64,000 nt of DNA from Psychromonas aquimarina ATCC BAA-1526. Lineage in GTDB: Bacteria; Pseudomonadota; Gammaproteobacteria; Enterobacterales; Psychromonadaceae. Positions within the stretch are counted from its first letter, which is position 1. Each line of letters begins with the position of its first letter. The stretch spans positions 354,208 to 418,207 of the forward strand of contig NZ_KE386791.1 of the NCBI RefSeq assembly GCF_000428725.1, read 5' to 3'. Below the pieces are notes generated by a model. The model saw only the letters and a program-made list of their open reading frames with translations, searched no databases and was not told where the DNA came from. This document shows positions 7,681 through 16,814 of this stretch, one piece after another. Both the position numbers and the translations under genes were made by a program.

Positions 7681-8640
7681 CTAAAGCAAACCGCTTTCCT
7701 TAAAATACTTAGCCGCACCTGGATGCATCGGTGCTGTATTGCCGTCTAACATATCTGATTTTTCAATATCAGCAAAACCCGGATGCAGTCTGCGGAAAGT
7801 GTCAAAATTATCAAATACTGCTTTTACAGCCTGATAGATAGTTTCATTCGACGTTTTAGCACTGGCTACAACTGTTGCCTTAGCGCCCAGTGTTGTTACC
7901 GTCTGCTCATTGCCGCGATACATGCCGCCGGGTACGTCATAAGAGACGTAATATGGCGTATCTTCTATCAGTTTTTTAACAGTTGTATCATCAACACTGA
8001 CTATATTCGTTTCGCATGAGGTGGTTGCTTCTTTAATTGCTCCGTTAGGGTGACCGACAAAATAGACCATGACATCTATTTTATTATCGCAAAGTGCCTG
8101 TGCCTGCTCGGCTGCTTTCAGCTCTGATGTAAGGCGGAAATCGCTGCTTTCCCAGCCTTTTGCATCCATCAGAACTTCCATTGTGGCACGTTGACCTGAG
8201 CCGGGCTCACCAATATTTACCCGTTTGCCTTTCAGATCATCAAAAGTTTTGATATTGGCATCTTTACGCGCTACAACCGTGAAAGCTTCCGTATAGATAG
8301 AAAAAACACTGCGAAGATCTTCGTATTTACCCGCTTTTGCAAAGGCTCCTTTACCGTTATAAGCATCGTACTGCTGATCCGACTGTGCAACACCTAAGCT
8401 TAATTCACCGGCACGAAGTGTGTTGAGGTTGTATACAGAGCCGCCGGTACTTTCGACGTTACAGCGAATTCCGTGATCACTGTTATCTTTGTTGATCAAG
8501 CGGCACATTCCGCCGCCGGCAGGGTAATAAACTCCAGTAACACCGCCGGTACCGATAGTTAGGAATTCTTGAGCTTGAGTCAGTGGAGCAAGAGTTACTG
8601 CAGTGAAAGCAGCCGCTGCCAAAAGGGATTTATTCTTCAT
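7681..8640 (-). CDS. TAXI family TRAP transporter solute-binding protein
   Basis: A 319-residue periplasmic receptor with a clear Sec signal peptide (MKNKSLLAAAAFTAVTLAP, cleavage near AQA). The mature start FLTIGTGGVTGVYYPAGGG is the hallmark of TAXI proteins (TRAP-associated extracytoplasmic immunogenic). The following region with LNTLRAGELSLGVAQSDQ and GEPGSGQRATMEVLMDA also fits the fold. It captures a small organic substrate, possibly a dicarboxylate or glutamate-like acid, and delivers it to the fused permease encoded next. The ligand cannot be read from sequence. It is the first gene of a two-gene operon, transcribed divergently from rihA. Confidence 0.92.
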   Translation of the reverse strand: MKNKSLLAAAAFTAVTLAPLTQAQEFLTIGTGGVTGVYYPAGGGMCRLINKDNSDHGIRCNVESTGGSVYNLNTLRAGELSLGVAQSDQQYDAYNGKGAFAKAGKYEDLRSVFSIYTEAFTVVARKDANIKTFDDLKGKRVNIGEPGSGQRATMEVLMDAKGWESSDFRLTSELKAAEQAQALCDNKIDVMVYFVGHPNGAIKEATTSCETNIVSVDDTTVKKLIEDTPYYVSYDVPGGMYRGNEQTVTTLGAKATVVASAKTSNETIYQAVKAVFDNFDTFRRLHPGFADIEKSDMLDGNTAPMHPGAAKYFKESGLL

Positions 8641-9049
8641 TTTGTATCCTCTACGAGTGTTTTTGAATTGTTACCGCCCGTAAAGCAAAACGAATTCAGC
8701 AATAGTCCAGGCGGTTACATTATCATCATATTCGCCTGATCCATGGCTGTCTTTCATTCGTCGACGATGTTAACAAAATGTTACTTGGGCAGCAGTGATG
8801 CAGCATGCGCTTTGCTAAAATATAATTTTTATATTACTTTCTGCATATGAAAATATTTGCTTTTATTAACCACAAACAGGACTTTAAGGAGCACAGAACA
8901 GAGCGGCTAATATCGATGTAGTGTATTGATTAAGTACTGATTTATAAGTGAAATTGAAGCATTATCTGTTTTAAAATGTGAAGGTTAACGCATTACCAGT
9001 GCTGCGGCCGTGTTAATCTGCTTTTTTGTTAAAATAAAGGAGTTAGACA
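8641..9049. other. Divergent intergenic region between the TAXI gene and rihA
   Basis: This 409-bp spacer must hold both promoters. A strong Shine-Dalgarno (AAAGGAG) precedes the rihA ATG. I see a half CRP-like TGTGA near 8977 but no convincing full palindrome, and no ORF. Confidence 0.5.
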
Positions 9050-9988
9050 ATGACACGCCCGATAATTCTAGATTGTGATCCCGGCCATGATGATGCGATT
9101 GCGCTTATTCTTGCACTTAGCAGTGATGCTTTTTCTCCACTAGCAGTGACCACAAGTGCTGGTAATCAGACCCCGGATAAAACGCTTAATAATGCGCTGC
9201 GCATCCTCACCCTGCTAAAACGCAGCGATATTCCAGTGGCGGGCGGGGCGCCTAAACCACTGTCTAGAGAGTTAATTATTGCCGATAATGTCCACGGTGA
9301 GACGGGACTTGACGGCCCCAAACTACCCGATCCTGGTTTTTCTCCCGTAACTCTAACGGCTGTTGAACTGATGGCGCTGCAGCTTAAGGAAAGCCGTGAA
9401 CCTGTAACACTTGTGCCGACGGGGCCGCTGACCAATATTGCTATACTGCTGACCGGTCATCCTGAACTTCATCATAAAATTGAACGGATAGTGTTAATGG
9501 GTGGTGCAGCCGGCGTAGGAAACTGGACACCGGCAGCTGAATTTAATATTTATGTTGATCCAGAAGCTGCTGATATTGTGTTTAAATCCGGTATCCCTAT
9601 TACCATGTGCGGTCTGGATGTTACGCATCGAGCACAGATTATGGATGAAGATATAGAGCGGATCCGCGCCGTTGATAATCCGATTGCGTTATGTGTGGCT
9701 GAGCTTCTCGACTTCTTTATGGTTTACCACAGAGATCCTAAATGGGGATTTGCCGGTGCGCCGCTTCATGATCCATGTACTATCGCCTGGATGCTTAAAC
9801 CTGAATTGTTTGAAGCGCAGGAATGCTGGGTCGGAATTGAAACTAAAGGTGAGCTTACTCAGGGAATGACTGTGGTTGACCGTTATCAGCTGACAGGAAA
9901 TAAAACTAACGCGACAGTTTTATTTGATCTGGACAGAGAGGGGTTTGTCGATCTCTTAGTTGAAAGCCTGCAGGCATACGGCCGCTAA
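9050..9988 (+). CDS. rihA: Inosine-uridine-preferring nucleoside hydrolase (RihA type)
   Basis: A 312-residue cytoplasmic enzyme that hydrolyses the N-glycosidic bond of ribonucleosides to base and ribose. The N-terminal [16 protein letters not shown] contains the aspartate cluster (D-x-D-x-x-x-D-D) that holds the catalytic calcium. The segment [16 protein letters not shown], the [14 protein letters not shown] motif and the C-terminal [19 protein letters not shown] closely follow E. coli RihA as I remember it, including [17 protein letters not shown]. Length is normal. It stands alone, with a good AAAGGAG ribosome site. In such bacteria it salvages pyrimidine nucleosides and fits with nupC elsewhere in the window. 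Confidence 0.93.
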
Positions 9989-10103
9989 AATAAGTAAATT
10001 TAAAAAATTTGAGTGTTTGTCCTGTTCGGGCAAGCCTCAATTAAGCGCTGTTCAAAGTATTTTAACAGTCTGTGTTTGTAAGGAATTTCCTGCTGCCAAA
10101 GGA

Positions 10104-10132
10104 TTTACAAAATCCATTGTAGACTATATATT
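10104..10132 (+). promoter_or_regulatory. Predicted sigma-70 promoter of matP
   Basis: The -35 element TTTACA (10104-10109) and -10 element TATATT (10127-10132) are separated by 17 bp. Transcription would start near 10139, immediately before the matS site at 10143. Confidence 0.6.
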
Positions 10133-10142
10133 TGCACAAAGT

Positions 10143-10155
10143 GTGACACTGTCAC
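10143..10155. promoter_or_regulatory. matS site 1, in the matP leader (putative autoregulatory operator)
   Basis: GTGACACTGTCAC is a perfect match to the E. coli matS consensus GTGACRNYGTCAC. It lies just downstream of the predicted matP start point and 37 bp before the matP ATG. MatP bound here would block its own gene. Confidence 0.85.
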
Positions 10156-10191
10156 AAATTATTTTTATCAATCAAAATCTAAAGAGCTAAA

Positions 10192-10593
10192 ATGGCGAAG
10201 GTAGTGAACATATTTAATGACTATTATGACATTCAGGAATCATGGATCAGAAGACAGATTGATAACCTGAAATACGATTCATTTATTGATTTAAACGCCG
10301 CAAAAAAAGAGATTGAAGGAGCTGGACTGGTTGCCTTTGTTGATCATCATTCTCTGCAGCAGTTTCGAGAAAGTAATCTTTCCGTGACCGGGAAAAAGAA
10401 ATTATCTGCAGCATTACGAACTTATAAAAAACGTGATAATAGAAAGTTAACAACAAGAAGGCTGGATATTGATATTTCGCTGCAGGCACACCAGGTACTT
10501 GAAACCATGGCGGCTGAATCCGGATTAACAAAAATTCAAATTATTGAGCAGCTTCTTTTAAATGAAAGAGAAAAACAAATCAACTATGCGTGA
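10192..10593 (+). CDS. matP: MatP, macrodomain Ter organizer protein
   Basis: A 133-residue DNA-binding protein (E. coli MatP has about 150). The N-terminal part is helical with a conserved aromatic/basic stretch (ESWIRRQIDNLKY), then KKLSAALRTYKKRDNRK, and the C-terminal TTRRLDIDISLQAHQVLETM followed by LTKIQIIEQLL is a ribbon-helix-helix: a basic beta strand, helix, turn and helix. This matches MatP, which binds matS, condenses the Ter macrodomain and displaces MukBEF. The strongest support is independent of the protein: three perfect matS sequences surround the gene, and a dif site lies 4.7 kb away. The E. coli C-terminal coiled coil looks shortened. Start ATG follows AAAGAGCTAAA, a modest ribosome site. 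Autoregulation is inferred from matS in the leader. Confidence 0.88.
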   Translation: MAKVVNIFNDYYDIQESWIRRQIDNLKYDSFIDLNAAKKEIEGAGLVAFVDHHSLQQFRESNLSVTGKKKLSAALRTYKKRDNRKLTTRRLDIDISLQAHQVLETMAAESGLTKIQIIEQLLLNEREKQINYA

Positions 10594-10602
10594 CACTGTC
10601 AC
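10590..10602. promoter_or_regulatory. matS site 2, overlapping the matP stop codon
   Basis: A second perfect GTGACACTGTCAC begins in the last codons of matP, so the stop codon TGA is part of the site. It lies between matP and the convergent ATPase gene. Confidence 0.85.
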
Positions 10603-10635
10603 GCATTAACTGCAACAGCACAATTTTGGAGGTTA

Positions 10636-11805
10636 TCAAGTTCTTTTGCCGCCTTCCATTAGGCTTTTTAGTGACTTGTAAAGACCCGCTTTTTCGAAGA
10701 AGATACCTCCCTCATGCTCGGTCAGCAGCTCTTTTTTCTTCAATCGTTTAACTGAACTCTGAACAGAGCTTTTTTTGATTTCTTTTCCCATATGCTCAGA
10801 GTAGAACTTCAAATCTTCACTGCTGTACTTAGATTCAGCCTCGTACATTCGCACGTAAACCAGTTTATCGAGTGGTTTCAGATCTCGAAGAAGCTGATCT
10901 AAGCCTCCGTCGATACGAATCCTGGCTCTAACAATCTCCATTGCACTTTCTATATCAGTTCGATTAGTCGTTACCTCGGTCAATAAAACTCGAAACCAGA
11001 ATGGTGAGTATTCTAACTCTTTAAATGCACTCTCTAATGCATCAACAGAGTAGTCCAGCTGGAAGTATTCCTGTAATAATGAGCAAAAGAATTCAACACT
11101 ATTTTCATCAAGAGTAGGAAACTCCCTTAAAATGGCACTGTTATAGAAGGGCATTTCACGCTTAATTACCTTGTTATTACTTATCAGCTCTGACTCTTTT
11201 TGATTAAACATGGCCGCAACACCGCCGCGTGAAGATCCTGCATAGATAACGCAGATTTCATCGAAAGTATCAAAATTGGTTCGCAAACATGACTGAATAG
11301 GCAGAAATGCTTCCGAAGTGTTCAAGTGCTGCACTTCATCAATAATGAAAAGCGGTCTTTTATCACTGATATCACACAACCTGACAATCTCTTTAATTTG
11401 TTCGCTGATTTGAGATATTTCAGAGGCAGTGACACTGCTTAGAGATGAAGTAGAGGTATCAAAACTTGCTTTGATTACACCAAGATTGATGTCTAATTTT
11501 TTTACCTCAGACGACAGCAGCTGCCTGATTGACTGACTGGTTTTGCTCTTAAGTGCTGCTATATATCGCTCCAGGGTCAAAACAATATGCTCTTGAGGTG
11601 ATTCTTTGTTGTCCCACATGTTAAGGTAGACTGGCAGAAACTCCAGCTTTTCCGCAATAGGTGCAAGGTCTTTAAGAAGGAATGCCGTCTTACCAATTCG
11701 ACGCACACCAAGTAAAGCGATACGAGATATTGGACTTAAACCTACCGCCTTAACATATTGTTCTGCAAGTTCTGGGCGTTGATAGTGCCAGTTAATTTGT
11801 TTCAT
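10636..11805 (-). CDS. AAA/STAND-type ATPase with C-terminal winged-helix-like region, next to matP
   Basis: A 389-residue protein. Walker A GVRRIGKTAF lies at about residues 33-42 and Walker B LFIIDEVQHL near 150, followed by a sensor-like VIYAGSSRGGVAAM. This is the pattern of the archaeal-ATPase/AAA_22-like group of P-loop NTPases. The C-terminal 80 residues (SSEDLKFYSEHMGKEIKKSSVQSSVKRLKKKELL) look like a winged helix, suggesting DNA or target recognition. No membrane segment is seen. It is convergent with matP and sits between matP and a duplicated copy of the matP tail, so it appears inserted. Its role is unknown; proteins of this group occur in mobile elements, defence loci and transposition (TniB/ExeA-like). 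No transposase is present nearby. Confidence 0.75.
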   Translation of the reverse strand: MKQINWHYQRPELAEQYVKAVGLSPISRIALLGVRRIGKTAFLLKDLAPIAEKLEFLPVYLNMWDNKESPQEHIVLTLERYIAALKSKTSQSIRQLLSSEVKKLDINLGVIKASFDTSTSSLSSVTASEISQISEQIKEIVRLCDISDKRPLFIIDEVQHLNTSEAFLPIQSCLRTNFDTFDEICVIYAGSSRGGVAAMFNQKESELISNNKVIKREMPFYNSAILREFPTLDENSVEFFCSLLQEYFQLDYSVDALESAFKELEYSPFWFRVLLTEVTTNRTDIESAMEIVRARIRIDGGLDQLLRDLKPLDKLVYVRMYEAESKYSSEDLKFYSEHMGKEIKKSSVQSSVKRLKKKELLTEHEGGIFFEKAGLYKSLKSLMEGGKRT

Positions 11806-11815
11806 AATTCCTCTT

Positions 11816-11855
11816 GGTATACCTTAGTACGAACCTGTTGGTACTAAAGCATACC
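11816..11855. promoter_or_regulatory. 40-bp imperfect dyad upstream of the ATPase gene
   Basis: Outer arms GGTAT and ATACC and inner arms CTTAGTAC and GTACTAAAG are arranged symmetrically around a 9-base centre. It begins 10 bp upstream of the ATPase start codon. It could be an operator or a transcript hairpin. Confidence 0.55.
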
Positions 11856-12005
11856 GCAAGTATTTAGATGGATCAAGACGTTGAGATTATTGAAGGATAG
11901 TGCAGTTATGTGAGTGTATCTATAAAAACTAATATTAATAGGGGCTTGGTTAAGCCGTATTTGATAATCACAGAATGTAGATTATCGACTGGTCTTTAGA
12001 TCTGA

Positions 12006-12072
12006 CAATGTATTGAACAGTTGCTTTTTAAAGAAAGAGAAAAGCAAATTCACAACAGTGTGACACTGTCAC
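12006..12072 (+). pseudogene. Duplicated 3' end of matP with third matS
   Basis: About 65 bp resemble the end of matP. Translated in frame it reads IEQLLFKEREKQI, against IEQLLLNEREKQI in MatP, and it is followed, as in matP, by a matS site. A stop codon lies just upstream, so it is not a gene. It marks the far edge of the segment carrying the ATPase. Confidence 0.75.
12060..12072. promoter_or_regulatory. matS site 3
   Basis: Third perfect GTGACACTGTCAC, at the end of the duplicated matP tail. Three matS within 1.9 kb is far denser than the roughly one per 35 kb known for the E. coli Ter domain. Confidence 0.82.
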
Positions 12073-12243
12073 ATTTCATTATAATAAAATATGCGTTTTA
12101 ATAAGCCGATTAATACTTCTGAGATTTCCTGCTTTGATACAACACTTTGATTTATATGTAGATTTTACGTGAGAGCGTTTGAAAAACAGACAATAAGTTA
12201 TTGAAGCCAATAATGGCGGGTCTTTCAGAACGGTTCGTTGAAA

Positions 12244-12339
12244 ATGAATGATCTAATTATTCGGTTAATCAGCTTGTTATTGCTGATAATCTGCTCAAAC
12301 GGCTGTAAAACGCAGTTAAATTTATCTCTACGAAGCTGA
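12244..12339 (+). CDS. Candidate 31-residue hydrophobic peptide inside repeat R1
   Basis: Starting MNDLIIRLISLLLLIICSNG, the peptide has a run of Leu/Ile followed by two cysteines and a short polar tail. It resembles a lipoprotein leader or a small membrane toxin. The matching stretch of R2 keeps the same frame for its last 22 residues, with three of the six codon differences silent, but has lost one base near the start. No strong ribosome site is seen in R1; R2 has AGGGGA at the equivalent place. Coding is suggested, not shown. Confidence 0.35.
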   Translation: MNDLIIRLISLLLLIICSNGCKTQLNLSLRS

Positions 12340-12447
12340 AGTTGAATTAGTGCAGTTTAAACGAGGTATAAATAAAAGGCGGCTCTTGGCAAATGTGTAT
12401 TGCTAATTGTGAAAAATGCACATATTTACCTATTTGTTCAAAACGAA

Positions 12448-12463
12448 CTGTGTGTATTTACAG
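12448..12463. promoter_or_regulatory. LexA-like box in R1, upstream of the PRPP synthetase-like gene
   Basis: CTGTGTGTATTTACAG fits the gammaproteobacterial LexA consensus CTGT-N8-ACAG exactly in the fixed positions. It lies 153 bp before the start codon at 12616. Confidence 0.55.
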
Positions 12464-12518
12464 TGTATCTTTTTGGTAAAAGGAATTGATTGTTCCTAAG
12501 CACGAAAAAGTCGAAACT

Positions 12519-12534
12519 TTGTATGTATACACAG
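12519..12534. promoter_or_regulatory. Near-LexA box closer to the PRPP synthetase-like gene
   Basis: TTGTATGTATACACAG differs from CTGT-N8-ACAG at one fixed position and is 82 bp before the start codon. Together with the 12448 box it would make a double operator. Confidence 0.35.
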
Positions 12535-12615
12535 TATCGATTAGGAAGCGTTAATATTAAAATTAGCGTCTAAATTCCTCCACCTCCAATCGTCTATTTT
12601 GGCAAGGATCTGTTC

Positions 12616-13833
12616 ATGAGTTTATCAACCAGTCAGTCTAGTAATCTCGTCGTTGTAAGTAATACTTCTGACAACCCGTTTGCAATTGATATAGCCTACG
12701 CTATGGGACAGCATGAAGATATTGCTGATTTGATCAGCATGAAAACCTTTATGAATTCTGAATTTTGTCCACGTTTCATCTCGGATGAACTGGATATGGA
12801 TTCGATAGGTCAAACACTGAACGGCAAGACCGTGGTTATTGTCAGTACCAGCAGCCATACTAAATCTCGTCAAGAATTGGCAATGGCTAATCTGGTCATA
12901 GCCCGAACCGCTAAAGAAAATGGTGCTAGCCGCGTTGTTCTGGTTGAACCTGATCTGTTCTACAGTGCACAAGATAGAGGAGCTCATAAAAATTTAGGTG
13001 AAACACATTTTGAACGCGACGTTAATGACATAAAAAAATTCGATGGTCAGGCATTCACGGCAAAGTTATATGCACAGTTATTAAAGTTCTCTGGTGTTGA
13101 TACCGTACTGACAATTCACAATCATTCTTACTCTGTGCAGCGTATTTTCTCAGAAATATTTGAAGGTGATTTTCATAATCTGATCCCTTATCAAATTTAC
13201 GCTCACTATTTATTGAATAGCAATATTTTAAATTACGGCCCTGATGGTGAAGGCTTAGTATTATGCGCACCTGATAAAGGAGCCCGCGATTTCGTGAAAG
13301 AAATGTTCAATGCGCTAGGTTTGTCTAAAGCAAAATTTATCATGCTCGACAAAGAACGCAGCAATGAACGCAAAGTGGATATTACCCTGCACAAGGAAAG
13401 CGAACACACCTTTGAAGATCTAGACGGCTGCAGCATTGTATTGTTTGATGACATGGTTCGCACCGGCTCTACGGTGGTTAAGTCTTGTCAGTTTTTACAA
13501 AAAATAAATCCTGAGCGCATGGTGTTTGCTGTTTCGCATTTCTATGCCAGTGATGAAGGGCGCGAGCGAATGGTCCATCCTGCCATTGGTGAAATTTTAA
13601 CGCTCAACACTTTGCCAACTATTCTAAACCGAGATGAACAGGGACGTTTACGTAAAAAACTCGTCGTGCTTAAAGTTGAAAAATGGCTAGCACAAGAGCT
13701 CTCTAACATTTTAGATTTGCCATATCATTCAGAAGCCAATCCATACAAGATTGATATGTCTTCAAAGAACCCGCGCTTTCAGCGTAAGATCTGGCACAGC
13801 GAAGAATTGTCAGATTTAAAGAAGGACAAATAG
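12616..13833 (+). CDS. Divergent ribose-phosphate pyrophosphokinase (PRPP synthetase-like)
   Basis: A 405-residue protein, longer than housekeeping Prs (about 315). It has the two-domain phosphoribosyltransferase fold. In the first half YSAQDRGAHKN corresponds to the Prs YxRQDR ATP loop, and TIHNHSYSVQRIF to the Prs D-L-H region. In the second half IVLFDDMVRTGSTVV is the PRPP-binding loop (usual form VDDMIDTGGT). A C-terminal extension of about 60 residues is rich in charged residues. It would make PRPP from ribose 5-phosphate and ATP; such alternative Prs proteins often serve NAD salvage, but no nadV neighbour is seen. The gene lies alone between repeats R1 and R2, with LexA-like boxes upstream and a terminator downstream. 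The ribosome site is weak (CAAGGATCTG). Confidence 0.8.
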   Translation: MSLSTSQSSNLVVVSNTSDNPFAIDIAYAMGQHEDIADLISMKTFMNSEFCPRFISDELDMDSIGQTLNGKTVVIVSTSSHTKSRQELAMANLVIARTAKENGASRVVLVEPDLFYSAQDRGAHKNLGETHFERDVNDIKKFDGQAFTAKLYAQLLKFSGVDTVLTIHNHSYSVQRIFSEIFEGDFHNLIPYQIYAHYLLNSNILNYGPDGEGLVLCAPDKGARDFVKEMFNALGLSKAKFIMLDKERSNERKVDITLHKESEHTFEDLDGCSIVLFDDMVRTGSTVVKSCQFLQKINPERMVFAVSHFYASDEGRERMVHPAIGEILTLNTLPTILNRDEQGRLRKKLVVLKVEKWLAQELSNILDLPYHSEANPYKIDMSSKNPRFQRKIWHSEELSDLKKDK

Positions 13834-13853
13834 CTGCTCATAAAAAAGAGTCA

Positions 13854-13886
13854 TCGAGTAAGCTCGGCATTGGTCGAGCTTTTTAT
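13854..13886 (+). terminator. Rho-independent terminator after the PRPP synthetase-like gene
   Basis: AGCTCG, loop GCATTGGT, CGAGCT, then TTTTTAT, beginning 27 bp after the stop codon. Confidence 0.75.
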
Positions 13887-13896
13887 ATGGCTGGAT

Positions 13897-14259
13897 ATGC
13901 CTTTAAATAAATAGATTAATGCTTCATATGATTTCTGCTTCGATACAATAGCTTGTTTTCTTTACAGATTTTACGTGAGAGCGCTCAGAAAACAGACAGA
14001 TGGTTGTTAAGCCCATTAATAGCAGGCCTTTCAGGGGAATCAGTAAGAAATGAATGACGCAATTGTTGCATAATTAGCTTGTTATTGCTGATATTCTGCT
14101 CAAATGACTGCAAAACTCAGTTATATTTATCTCTACGAAGCTGAATCAGTACAGCTTGAACGAGGCATAAATAAAAGGGGGCTTGTACTAAATTTTTATC
14201 GCTAACTGTAAAAAGACACGTATTTACGGGACTTTAAAAACAACTGTATACAATAACAG
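13897..14259. repeat. Diverged direct repeat R2 (downstream of the PRPP synthetase-like gene)
   Basis: Counterpart of R1 in the same orientation, with the same order of blocks, including a copy of the small hydrophobic reading frame disrupted by a one-base deletion, and ending in a CTGT-N8-ACAG box at 14244-14259. Confidence 0.8.
14244..14259. promoter_or_regulatory. LexA-like box in R2
   Basis: CTGTATACAATAACAG fits CTGT-N8-ACAG. No ORF of note follows it, so it is either a relic of duplication or controls a small RNA or peptide. Confidence 0.45.
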
Positions 14260-14264
14260 TAATT

Positions 14265-14375
14265 AAATAGATAAATAAAAGGGCGCTTAGTCTATATTTT
14301 GTCCTGAAACTGCAATAATCACTGTAAAAAGCTTCATTTTTACGCAAATACCAACACAGCTGTATGTACATACAG
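14265..14375. repeat. Partial repeat R3 (tail of the R unit) with LexA-like box
   Basis: Repeats the last ~110 bp of R1/R2: ATAAATAAAAGGGCGCTT, an inverted repeat GTAAAAA-TTTTTAC, and then CTGTATGTACATACAG at 14360-14375, a perfect 16-bp palindrome and the best LexA box of the set. Confidence 0.65.
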
Positions 14376-14802
14376 TTTTAATCCGCTCCCTGTGAAAAGC
14401 TGACTTATTAAACTTAAACAGCTAAGTAACAATCTAATTCAGTTAATTTATCTGATATTAAACGGGTTGATTATATAAACACTGATATTTATGGATGCTC
14501 GGTTAAGTTTAGTTTCTGATAATCACAGGTAATCGTCAGCTAAAAATAGATGAATTGAAAACTAGTAACCGCATTGGATTAAAGAGAATCTTAAGCGCCC
14601 AATACATAACTTAATAATTGGTTTGTTACGATTTGATTACAGGTGAAAACTATTAGTAGATAGCTAAGTGAAGTTTAAATATTGTTGGCCAGTGCTTAAA
14701 GTTGGTTATGAACAGCTAAGGTAATAAAGCAAATTAAGTAAGTTAATAATATATAAAGAGCTTGGATGATATGACCAATAAAAGCTTAAAGGTAATTTAG
14801 AT
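14376..14802. other. AT-rich non-coding terminus segment
   Basis: No ORF or RNA gene seen. One stretch near 14490-14530 (GGTTAAG, TTTCTGATAATCACAG) resembles 11940-11985, a further sign that this region grew by duplication. Confidence 0.5.
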
Positions 14803-15086
14803 TTAACGATTAGCTTGCTGTGTAAAATCTACGGGTAATAACAGCCGCAAAAGGCTCAGATTTTACGTGACAGAATATAGTAACGAATCGACAAGTTAGC
14901 TGTGTAAAATCTGCTGGTAATAACAGACATAACCAGCTCAGATTTTACGTGACAGTCCATAACAATAAATGGATAAGTTGGCGGTGTGAAATCTATGAAT
15001 AATGACAGACATGACAGGTTTAGATAATTATCGTTGAAATCTGCGAGTAACGGCAGACAGAAAAAAGCTTAGATTATACGTAGAGC
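14803..15086 (+). repeat. Tandem array of hairpin units (82-bp period) ending 177 bp before dif
   Basis: Left arms TGTAAAATCT (or variants) start at 14821, 14903, 14985 and 15033, giving spacings of 82, 82 and 48 bp. Right arms AGATTTTACG lie at 14858 and 14940 and, diverged, near 15071. Each unit folds into a stem with a conserved GGTAATAACAG-type loop segment; the second unit has an extra inner stem GCTGGT/ACCAGC. The third is decayed and shortened. Confidence 0.75.
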
Positions 15087-15262
15087 CGGAAAGTTTAAAT
15101 ATAAGAAGATTTATTAAATAACATAGATGATGGTGTAAAGAGTAGAATAGACATCAAGTTTAAAAATAGGTTAACAACACAGTGTGTGAACTTTATAGCT
15201 GACGTAGATCTTAAATTTAATGAGATTTATTAAGATAATCCCCCTACAGAACAAAACAGATA

Positions 15263-15290
15263 ACTGCGCATAATGTATATTATGTTAAAT
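15263..15290 (+). other. dif: dif chromosome dimer resolution site
   Basis: XerC arm ACTGCGCATAA, centre TGTATA and XerD arm TTATGTTAAAT. It differs from E. coli dif only in the first two bases of the XerC arm. XerC and XerD recombine chromosome dimers here when FtsK reaches the site. It places the replication terminus inside this window. Confidence 0.95.
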
Positions 15291-15392
15291 AGGGTTTATG
15301 GTTAGATAGTGATGCCTATATATCTTGTGATAATTGAAGTTTGGATCCAGATCTGATCTTGTCTAGATTTCCATGCTATTGAACATAATCGC

Positions 15393-15420
15393 ATTTAACA
15401 TAAAATGTATAATATACCTA
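15393..15420 (-). other. Second, inverted dif-like site
   Basis: Read on the plus strand: ATTTAACATAA (perfect inverted XerD arm), a 6-bp centre AATGTA, then TAATATACCTA, which matches an XerC arm poorly. It lies 102 bp right of dif in the opposite orientation. It could be a decayed attachment site of a Xer-using element. Confidence 0.45.
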
Positions 15421-15440
15421 TCTATGGCGGAGCTTGAAAA

Positions 15441-15596
15441 ATGTTAAACAGCCTGGTTAATTCATTCTATTTATTGTTATCCGTCTGCAATCCTTGCTAT
15501 TTAAGGCTTGCAGAGAAAAACGATCATTCTCAAATGAATTTATTTAGGATTACTTCAATGATGCTATTTTCAAACTCTTGCTGCAGCAGAATTTAA
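15441..15596 (+). CDS. Candidate 51-residue ORF next to dif
   Basis: Begins MLNSLVNSFYLLLSVCNPCY; hydrophobic at the N-terminus, with five cysteines in all. GGAG lies 9 bases before the ATG. No homologue is recognised and it may be chance, since the region is otherwise non-coding. Confidence 0.2.
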   Translation: MLNSLVNSFYLLLSVCNPCYLRLAEKNDHSQMNLFRITSMMLFSNSCCSRI

Positions 15597-15640
15597 AAAT
15601 AGCTTTTTGAATACACTTATTGAGGTAACTACAATACTAA

Positions 15641-15892
15641 CTAATGATAATGTTTAATTAAATCAGCGGCTCTTACTGCTGATTCGGTAAATAATTCAGA
15701 CCATTGTTCACCATTGATTACATCAACAATTTTCATCAGGTCTGGATGCTCACCTTGGTTTTCTAAGTCAATTGCGTCTCTGACTACTTCTTTGATTAGC
15801 TCTTTTGCGACATTGTTTATGATTAGATCATGCTCTATTACTTCCATCAAATCATTAACAGTTGCAGTGCTAATTTGTTCTGCACTATTCAT
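15641..15892 (-). CDS. Small acidic hypothetical protein beside dif
   Basis: An 83-residue, acidic, predicted all-helical soluble protein without signal peptide or membrane segment (MNSAEQISTATVNDLMEVIE, later KELIKEVVRDAIDLENQGEH, end LIKHYH). A TAAGGG ribosome site precedes its ATG at about 8 bases. I do not recognise the family. It lies 350 bp from dif, pointing toward it, with non-coding DNA on both sides. The amphipathic heptad-like pattern suggests a helical bundle or oligomer. Balanced composition makes a real gene more likely than not. Confidence 0.55.
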   Translation of the reverse strand: MNSAEQISTATVNDLMEVIEHDLIINNVAKELIKEVVRDAIDLENQGEHPDLMKIVDVINGEQWSELFTESAVRAADLIKHYH

Positions 15893-16563
15893 CTTAAAAC
15901 CCTTACTGTTAGGACAACCATAACGCTTAGTTTAACCCGCGCACTTTTACAACTTTAAAATATGGTCACCCGTAATTTTAGTGCAGCTGCGGCAAATTGC
16001 TTACTTCAATAGTACGTCTCCACCTTTCTTAACAGCTTCGCAAAAAACAGCTGTTTTGTTTGTTAAATATACAAATTAGTTTGTTTTACAGTTATTTACC
16101 CGTGTTTTTTGATTCGTTCATTTTAAAACATATTGCCTGTACAGCCCGTAAACACTGGGCTTTGGAACTGCTTGTTTAATATCTAAACGCTCTCACGTAA
16201 AATCTATACAATAATTCGGCTAACTGCACACGTTCAGAAAAACTGAGAAACAAAAATCATATTATTTAACCGTACAACAGGTTGATTTGGATGGCTGAAT
16301 TGTATTTACGGTTATATTTTTCAGAGGCTGTCGGTTGGATCTGTTTCTATTTAATTATCAAATCAGATTAATACAGCAGTCGGACTTACACGCAACTAAT
16401 TAGATTAATTTTGTCTGTAATAAAAAATTTCTAGTATGAGTACTACTGCTAAAATTATTTTAAGTGCCCTGCTGATTATTTTTATATCACGTAAACGAAA
16501 TAACTTCGAACAAGTTAACCAGCTCTTCTGTTAATAAGCATCTCAATTTGCTTTAGAGCTTTA
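15893..16563. other. Non-coding spacer with an inverted copy of the terminus motif
   Basis: At 16185-16204 lies an exact reverse complement of the 20-base motif found at 12161-12180 (GATTTTACGTGAGAGCGTTT), now on the other side of dif. A stem AGCCC-GGGCT is at 16142-16161. Nothing else is seen. Confidence 0.7.
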
Positions 16564-16658
16564 CTAGTTCCCATGCTCCGCGTGGGAATTCATACCGGTA
16601 CATATCGACTACTCAACTTTAAACCTATGCATTCCCACGCAGAGCGTGGGAACGAGAT
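16564..16658. repeat. REP/BIME-like element 1 (two inverted copies)
   Basis: Left copy CTAGTTCCCATGCTCCGCGT... and right copy ATTCCCACGCAGAGCGTGGG... are inverted relative to each other with a 35-bp spacer. Each core is itself a palindrome (TCCCA-GC-TGGGA). Confidence 0.85.
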
Positions 16659-16744
16659 ACGTCTGTATCATAAACGTTTAGATATAGAATATAAGATAAA
16701 AGGTTTGCAAAGATTTAGTAGAGGTCTACCGAAGCCATCAGTGC

Positions 16745-16776
16745 CTGGTCTTTAATCTTGTAGATTAAAAGACCAG
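16745..16776 (-). terminator. Hairpin after the chemoreceptor gene
   Basis: CTGGTCTTTAATCT pairs with AGATTAAAAGACCAG around a 3-base loop. It lies 40 bp past the end of the convergently placed chemoreceptor gene. There is little U tract, so terminator strength is uncertain. Confidence 0.5.
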
Positions 16777-16814
16777 ACCGTGATGCTTAAGTGTTTACAA
16801 CACATTGAACATAT

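Follow-up and report, generated by a model that had tools for sequence, protein, structure and literature searches.

We examined a 64,000-nucleotide stretch of DNA from Psychromonas aquimarina ATCC BAA-1526 (contig NZ_KE386791.1, positions 354,208 to 418,207; hereafter the window), which falls on a 495-kb terminus contig of a 5.53-Mb genome assembled in 141 contigs. The locus of interest holds a gene for a small MatP-like ribbon-helix-helix (RHH) protein, three copies of a matS-like palindrome (P1 to P3) and an ATPase gene convergent with the RHH gene, the two sited between a nucleoside hydrolase gene and a PRPP-synthase-like gene. The stronger result of our work is that the RHH gene belongs to a self-sited, MatP-like gene family, linked to dif in this genome and, on plasmid-like DNA, to sites resembling dif; that the ATPase gene and its borders form an element is one of several explanations. 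The features of the locus are the following:

9050-9988: nucleoside hydrolase gene, left flank of the locus
10143..10155: P1, palindrome GTGACACTGTCAC on the 5' side of the RHH gene, exact fit to GTGACRNYGTCAC
10192..10593, plus strand: MatP-like RHH gene, 133 aa
10590..10602: P2, palindrome GTGACACTGTCAC, includes the RHH stop codon
10636..11805, minus strand: AAA_14-type ATPase gene, 389 aa, putative cargo
12006..12059, plus strand: remnant of a second RHH 3' tail
12060..12072: P3, palindrome GTGACACTGTCAC, beyond the ATPase gene
12616-13833: PRPP-synthase-like gene, 405 aa, right flank of the locus
15263..15290, plus strand: chromosomal dif site, recognized by its XerC/XerD match and the GC-skew turning point

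All three palindromes fit the matS consensus exactly and are putative binding sites. P1 is a third copy absent from the preliminary description of this DNA, in which the RHH gene had been called matP and the palindromes on either side of the ATPase gene had been read as matS sites of the Ter domain. The window contains four matS-type sites at up to one mismatch, three of them exact, where shuffled windows expect 0.16, and GTGACNNNGTCAC occurs seven times in the whole genome (three of them at this locus; the reversed-pattern control gave three). Across the 495-kb terminus contig just three sites are exact, all within 5.2 kb of dif, and four have one mismatch, as against 6-77 matS sites per Ter in 16 species according to PMC10945525. 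The matS consensus and the position at the terminus near dif agree with the earlier account, but three sites spread over 2 kb do not amount to a Ter studded with matS, and with only three such sites there is therefore no Ter macrodomain.

The canonical identity of the RHH protein as MatP was rejected, as it scored 20 bits against an NCBIfam matP cut-off of 165. A genome-level search with the matP model gave 22.2 bits in P. aquimarina, and the cut-off was reached by none of the 24 Psychromonas genomes. In structure comparison, however, the best matches of the predicted structure were to MatP and spanned nearly its whole length: all 133 residues align inside MatP residues 1-134, in a MatP chain of 150-151 residues. 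What stands of the name matP is this structural match together with a weak sequence match, and in proposing it the preliminary description is closer to MatP than the annotation models imply. If the locus encoded a canonical MatP that organises the Ter macrodomain through matS, the matS consensus, the MatP-like model and the proximity to dif would be accounted for; with a score far under the cut-off, so few sites on the contig and a protein that stops where MatP continues into its C-terminal tail, such an organiser is very improbable, and Ter organisation of this kind was rejected.

With the MatP/matS system of the Escherichia coli Ter macrodomain the locus shares a nearly whole-length model match, a C-terminal RHH domain, the matS consensus and proximity to dif. 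It differs in lacking the tail that serves for tetramers and ZapB contact, in having three sites instead of a dispersed set, in that these sites bracket their own gene, and in having relatives on a plasmid-like contig. There were also weak matches to RepA/RepB-type replication regulators, ParD and CopG. The RHH domain and weak profile or fold matches are shared with RHH plasmid regulators (CopG, RepA/RepB-type, ParG); unlike these, the Psychromonas protein has in addition a predicted N-terminal helical part of about 80 residues, and its sites are found also at the 3' end of the gene and dispersed on one contig.

The preliminary description had noticed that the tail of the RHH gene and its palindrome are repeated, in frame, past the ATPase gene, and this was borne out. 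Positions 10537-10580 and 12006-12049 are 82% identical over 44 nt, and an exact palindrome follows at each end; with the palindrome left out, the alignment of the two 57-nt tails scored 56, whereas the highest of 2000 shuffles reached 41. The second copy still encodes IEQLLFKEREKQI (read by eye), and similarity drops to background upstream of about 12005, giving the block a sharp edge. The copies are spaced 1469-1470 bp apart, and the ATPase is the sole open reading frame (ORF) of at least 80 aa between P2 and P3, in agreement with the 1.47-kb interval described earlier. A whole-genome search with 12006-12480 found the tail at two places only, both at this locus.

The sole relative found with the same locus is P. 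ossibalaenae (G016), which carries the nucleoside hydrolase gene (a neighbour limited to G000 and G016 among the 24 genus genomes) and an orthologous RHH gene (85%), with palindromes upstream of the RHH gene, at its stop codon and 568 bp further. In the slot between the last two, a 102-aa ORF on the minus strand, which matched no Pfam family, replaces the ATPase gene. DNA similarity between the two species ends at 10605, 3 bases beyond P2, and restarts at 12515. The RHH gene diverges faster (332 of 399 nt identical) than the hydrolase gene (846 of 936) or the PRPP-type gene (1148 of 1215).

These data bear on the earlier proposal of a 3'-end integrator, according to which a 1.47-kb ATPase unit inserted itself behind the RHH gene and, on entry, duplicated an attachment block made up of tail and palindrome. 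The sharp-edged block with its palindrome on both sides of the insert, the intact RHH gene and the boundary with P. ossibalaenae at P2 are what such an entry would leave. No integrase is encoded in the interval, however, the tails differ by about one fifth, and in P. ossibalaenae the palindromes enclose another gene, with no significant repeat of the tail at P3. No empty site was found among the 24 genomes of the genus, in which the one relative with the locus has its slot filled by this other gene. ATPase homologues of 64% identity in G058 and G077, which belong to another genus and mutually share their setting, stand without such palindromes; an ATPase gene without the duplicated tail, which the preliminary description had regarded as telling against its view, was thus found in part. 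A 3'-end integrator is a possible origin of the arrangement, if an improbable one.

The ATPase scored 28.2 bits against Pfam AAA_14 (cut-off 27), and its P-loop residues G37, K38 and T39, as well as D155 and E156, are invariant across 26 sequences; its best fold matches are archaeal Walker-type ATPases (PDB 2qen and 2fna), at just 16% and 14% identity. At E 1e-20 no other genome of the genus had it, although two gave weak partial matches (E 1e-4 to 1e-3), and a homologue at 65% is named Psychromonas sp. Because the gene is scarce in the genus and its homologues in G058 and G077 lack the palindromes, it looks like cargo; what recurs, on two examples, is the slot next to the RHH gene. The ATPase gene differs from the pdif (Xer) modules of Acinetobacter plasmids in having no dif-like site on either side: a scan of the window gave one strong dif, 3.5 kb from this gene, the next best site matching 15 of 22 positions.

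This dif, at 15263, agrees with the E. coli consensus at 20 of the 22 XerC/XerD positions, and the cumulative GC skew of the 495-kb contig reaches its maximum 81 bp away. On the same contig, GGGCAGGG motifs point to dif (left, 13 forward and 0 reverse; right, 0 and 1), and the looser GGGNAGGG gave 15 forward and 2 reverse on the left and 0 and 3 on the right. The distances of P1, P2 and P3 to dif are 5.1, 4.7 and 3.2 kb, and P. ossibalaenae has an identical dif sequence beyond its RHH locus (L041:18715). The placing of the locus recalls MatP, because matS density is highest at dif in 16 gammaproteobacteria, as stated in PMC10945525; the three sites themselves are near dif because the RHH gene is there.

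Other features were seen around dif. An 82-bp repeat of 2.4 copies adjoins it (14817-15011), the motif TCAGATTTTACGTGA occurs five times at up to two mismatches (12158, 13964, 14856, 14938 and 16193) against 0.24 expected, and this region, which is poor in ORFs, has parts that are about 76% alike between the window and P. ossibalaenae.

A profile built from 30 close proteins found matches in 13 of 394 genomes of the order, several of them weak or partial, and profile A2 gave two weak matches beyond the window's own genome among 369 genomes of the class. A wider profile gathered 180 proteins; among the 120 listed, these are largely unnamed contig proteins. Eight RHH genes were read in DNA (the window, L041, L044, two in L045, L046, L068 and L069). 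One or two palindromes lie upstream of all eight, and seven have a palindrome at the 3' end that overlaps the stop codon or stands at most 75 bp from it, L044 having none near. The upstream copies of L069 and one of those of L068 are reduced to the 11-base core, and the 3' copy of L068 has an altered centre. The genes of the window and P. ossibalaenae have sites of the type GTGACASTGTCAC, and the other six that of GTTACASTGTAAC or its core.

Among the 120 listed proteins, the C-terminal residues of 12 would spell the GTGAC form of the site (DSVT or DTVT type), those of 20 the GTTAC form (13 LQCN; 7 terminal VTL or VTV) and those of 88 neither, the spelling being deduced from residues except for P0128, whose DNA was seen and fits. 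Of the 12 proteins of the GTGAC form, 11 could be read for the strand residue, and all 11 have D; all 20 of the GTTAC form have Q.

As judged by eye, the L046 gene (G010) stands beside genes resembling a type I restriction system and that of L068 (G310) beside large P-loop NTPase and helicase lookalikes. A further stretch of G010 (C16, L188 6988-7078) contains five TTACATTGTAA copies at exact 20-bp steps, iteron-like.

An origin in phages or listed plasmids was rejected: tblastn searches with the window RHH protein and one distant relative gave no match in the plasmid and phage collections, and scans of viral contigs found no RHH relative. The 15-base site pattern was found in 92 viral stretches, at one place each in the 80 listed, with no array. 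MatP is described in PMC7188993 as a chromosomal protein of enteric-type bacteria, and a literature search, with most subscription journals outside its reach, found no publication on a MatP-like mobile or plasmid family; it also found nothing on Psychromonas with MukB and Dam, and unrelated matches only on PAGEV.

The two L045 genes lie on a plasmid-like contig of P. antarctica (G005:C266) with 13 exact sites in 15.5 kb, 11 of which fall outside ORFs of at least 80 aa (binomial p 0.0012). Besides the two RHH genes, it carries ParA-type, ParE-type and two recombinase-type genes (one of the latter under the Pfam cut-off), two PAGEV RNAs and eight dif-like sites. The dif-like sites and the toxin-type gene are shared with the pdif modules of Acinetobacter plasmids; if real, these would be Xer-type modules outside Acinetobacter. 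Six of the eight dif-like sites lie at most 240 bp from the core of an RHH site (p 0.013, with homologous copies still included), with spacers of 149 and 151 bp between unlike sequences and of 206 and 206 bp between homologous ones, a pattern that is suggestive on this one contig.

The two P. antarctica RHH genes are in opposite orientation and have homologous flanks, similarity stopping about 70-120 bp outside the outermost sites. This and the make-up of the contig suggest that the regulator sits on reshuffled DNA, the reshuffling possibly brought about by XerCD. Two paralogous small site-bracketed genes on the contig are alike in and near their coding part only. The idea that the RHH sites are general cassette borders was weakened by the finding of the eight dif-like sites, because Xer modules could explain the mosaic of the contig.

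Taking together what was observed directly (the gene, its sites and their bracketing, the different neighbour in P. ossibalaenae, the end sites across the family, dif and the plasmid-like relative), we infer, tentatively and at somewhat less than an even chance, that the locus encodes a self-sited, partly mobile MatP-like regulator or organiser with an exchangeable neighbour slot. An RHH dimer would bind each of the palindromes, and binding at P1 would control expression of the RHH gene itself. P2 and P3 would fence the neighbour gene, the ATPase here and the 102-aa ORF in P. ossibalaenae, and neighbours may be exchanged by recombination at the site, or at the gene tail with its site, leaving the relic tail beside P3. 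The RHH family would then consist of small MatP/matS-like systems, some of them mobile, as this copy too may be, and the bound sites beside dif could have a local effect on the terminus, perhaps by serving as MukBEF unloading points.

Several observations weigh against this interpretation. The predicted structure fits MatP at an rmsd of 5.7-5.9 only, the comparison tool warns that such Z scores are possible from a common helix arrangement, and the Foldseek E-values are at least 0.01. In sequence the protein resembles MatP only weakly (20 bits), and MatP in the PDB appears at E 0.2, ranked after CopG. The variable neighbour slot rests on two genomes, and at P3 of P. ossibalaenae neither a direct (p 0.75) nor an inverted (p 0.05) tail repeat was accepted. 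The D and Q groups are two clades, with the exception of the L045 gene at 369-1061, which has D with GTTAC sites. Finally, the RHH gene of G310 and its dif are 325 kb apart, and the 400 kb read on both sides of the G010 gene yielded no dif, for which reason proximity to dif was rejected as a rule of the family; the dif-adjacent placing belongs to this lineage.

The last point agrees with another explanation, in which the protein is no more than a plasmid-type RHH repressor that regulates itself, acting in replication or partition and also controlling the neighbour gene, the palindromes being its operators and the proximity to dif accidental. The weak RepA/RepB-type, ParD and CopG matches, the upstream sites of all eight genes and the occurrence of relatives together with ParA and two PAGEV RNAs on one contig are in line with such a repressor. 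Taken alone, however, it leaves unexplained the 3'-end site in seven of the eight genes, the N-terminal MatP-like part and the 13 dispersed sites in 15.5 kb, and we consider it rather unlikely, and less likely than the self-sited MatP-like organiser.

A broader extension of the MatP-like organiser, which we regard as quite unlikely and put forward as speculation, is that mobile, self-contained cousins of MatP/matS reside on plasmids or elements with their own sites, in places near Xer sites (dif or dif-like), acting as local terminus organisers or Xer accessory factors. Canonical MatP might then be a domesticated branch, and the D or Q strand residue would set recognition of GTGAC or GTTAC. 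A MatP-like family with matS-like sites and plasmid-like members would offer small test systems for matS function and a route to asking how MatP originated. With its three sites inside 2 kb at dif, the locus would test the minimum site number, given the 6-77 per Ter in PMC10945525.

As for expression signals, a promoter scan found 8 promoter-like sites against 8.2 expected, and therefore a promoter at P1 or P3 is unsupported, and an Rfam scan of window positions 8600-16800 gave no match at E 1. Terminator-like sites numbered five against 1.8 expected, three of them being the palindromes P1 to P3 themselves.

On the right flank, the PRPP-synthase-like protein (12616-13833) scored 107 bits against a cut-off of 113; close, near-full-length copies of its gene are present in 6 of the 24 genus genomes, and some match in all 24. 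Direct repeats of about 320 bp (12089-12415 and 13895-14214), mostly 74-91% alike, flank this gene, and in P. ossibalaenae a copy of the repeat was seen only downstream of it.
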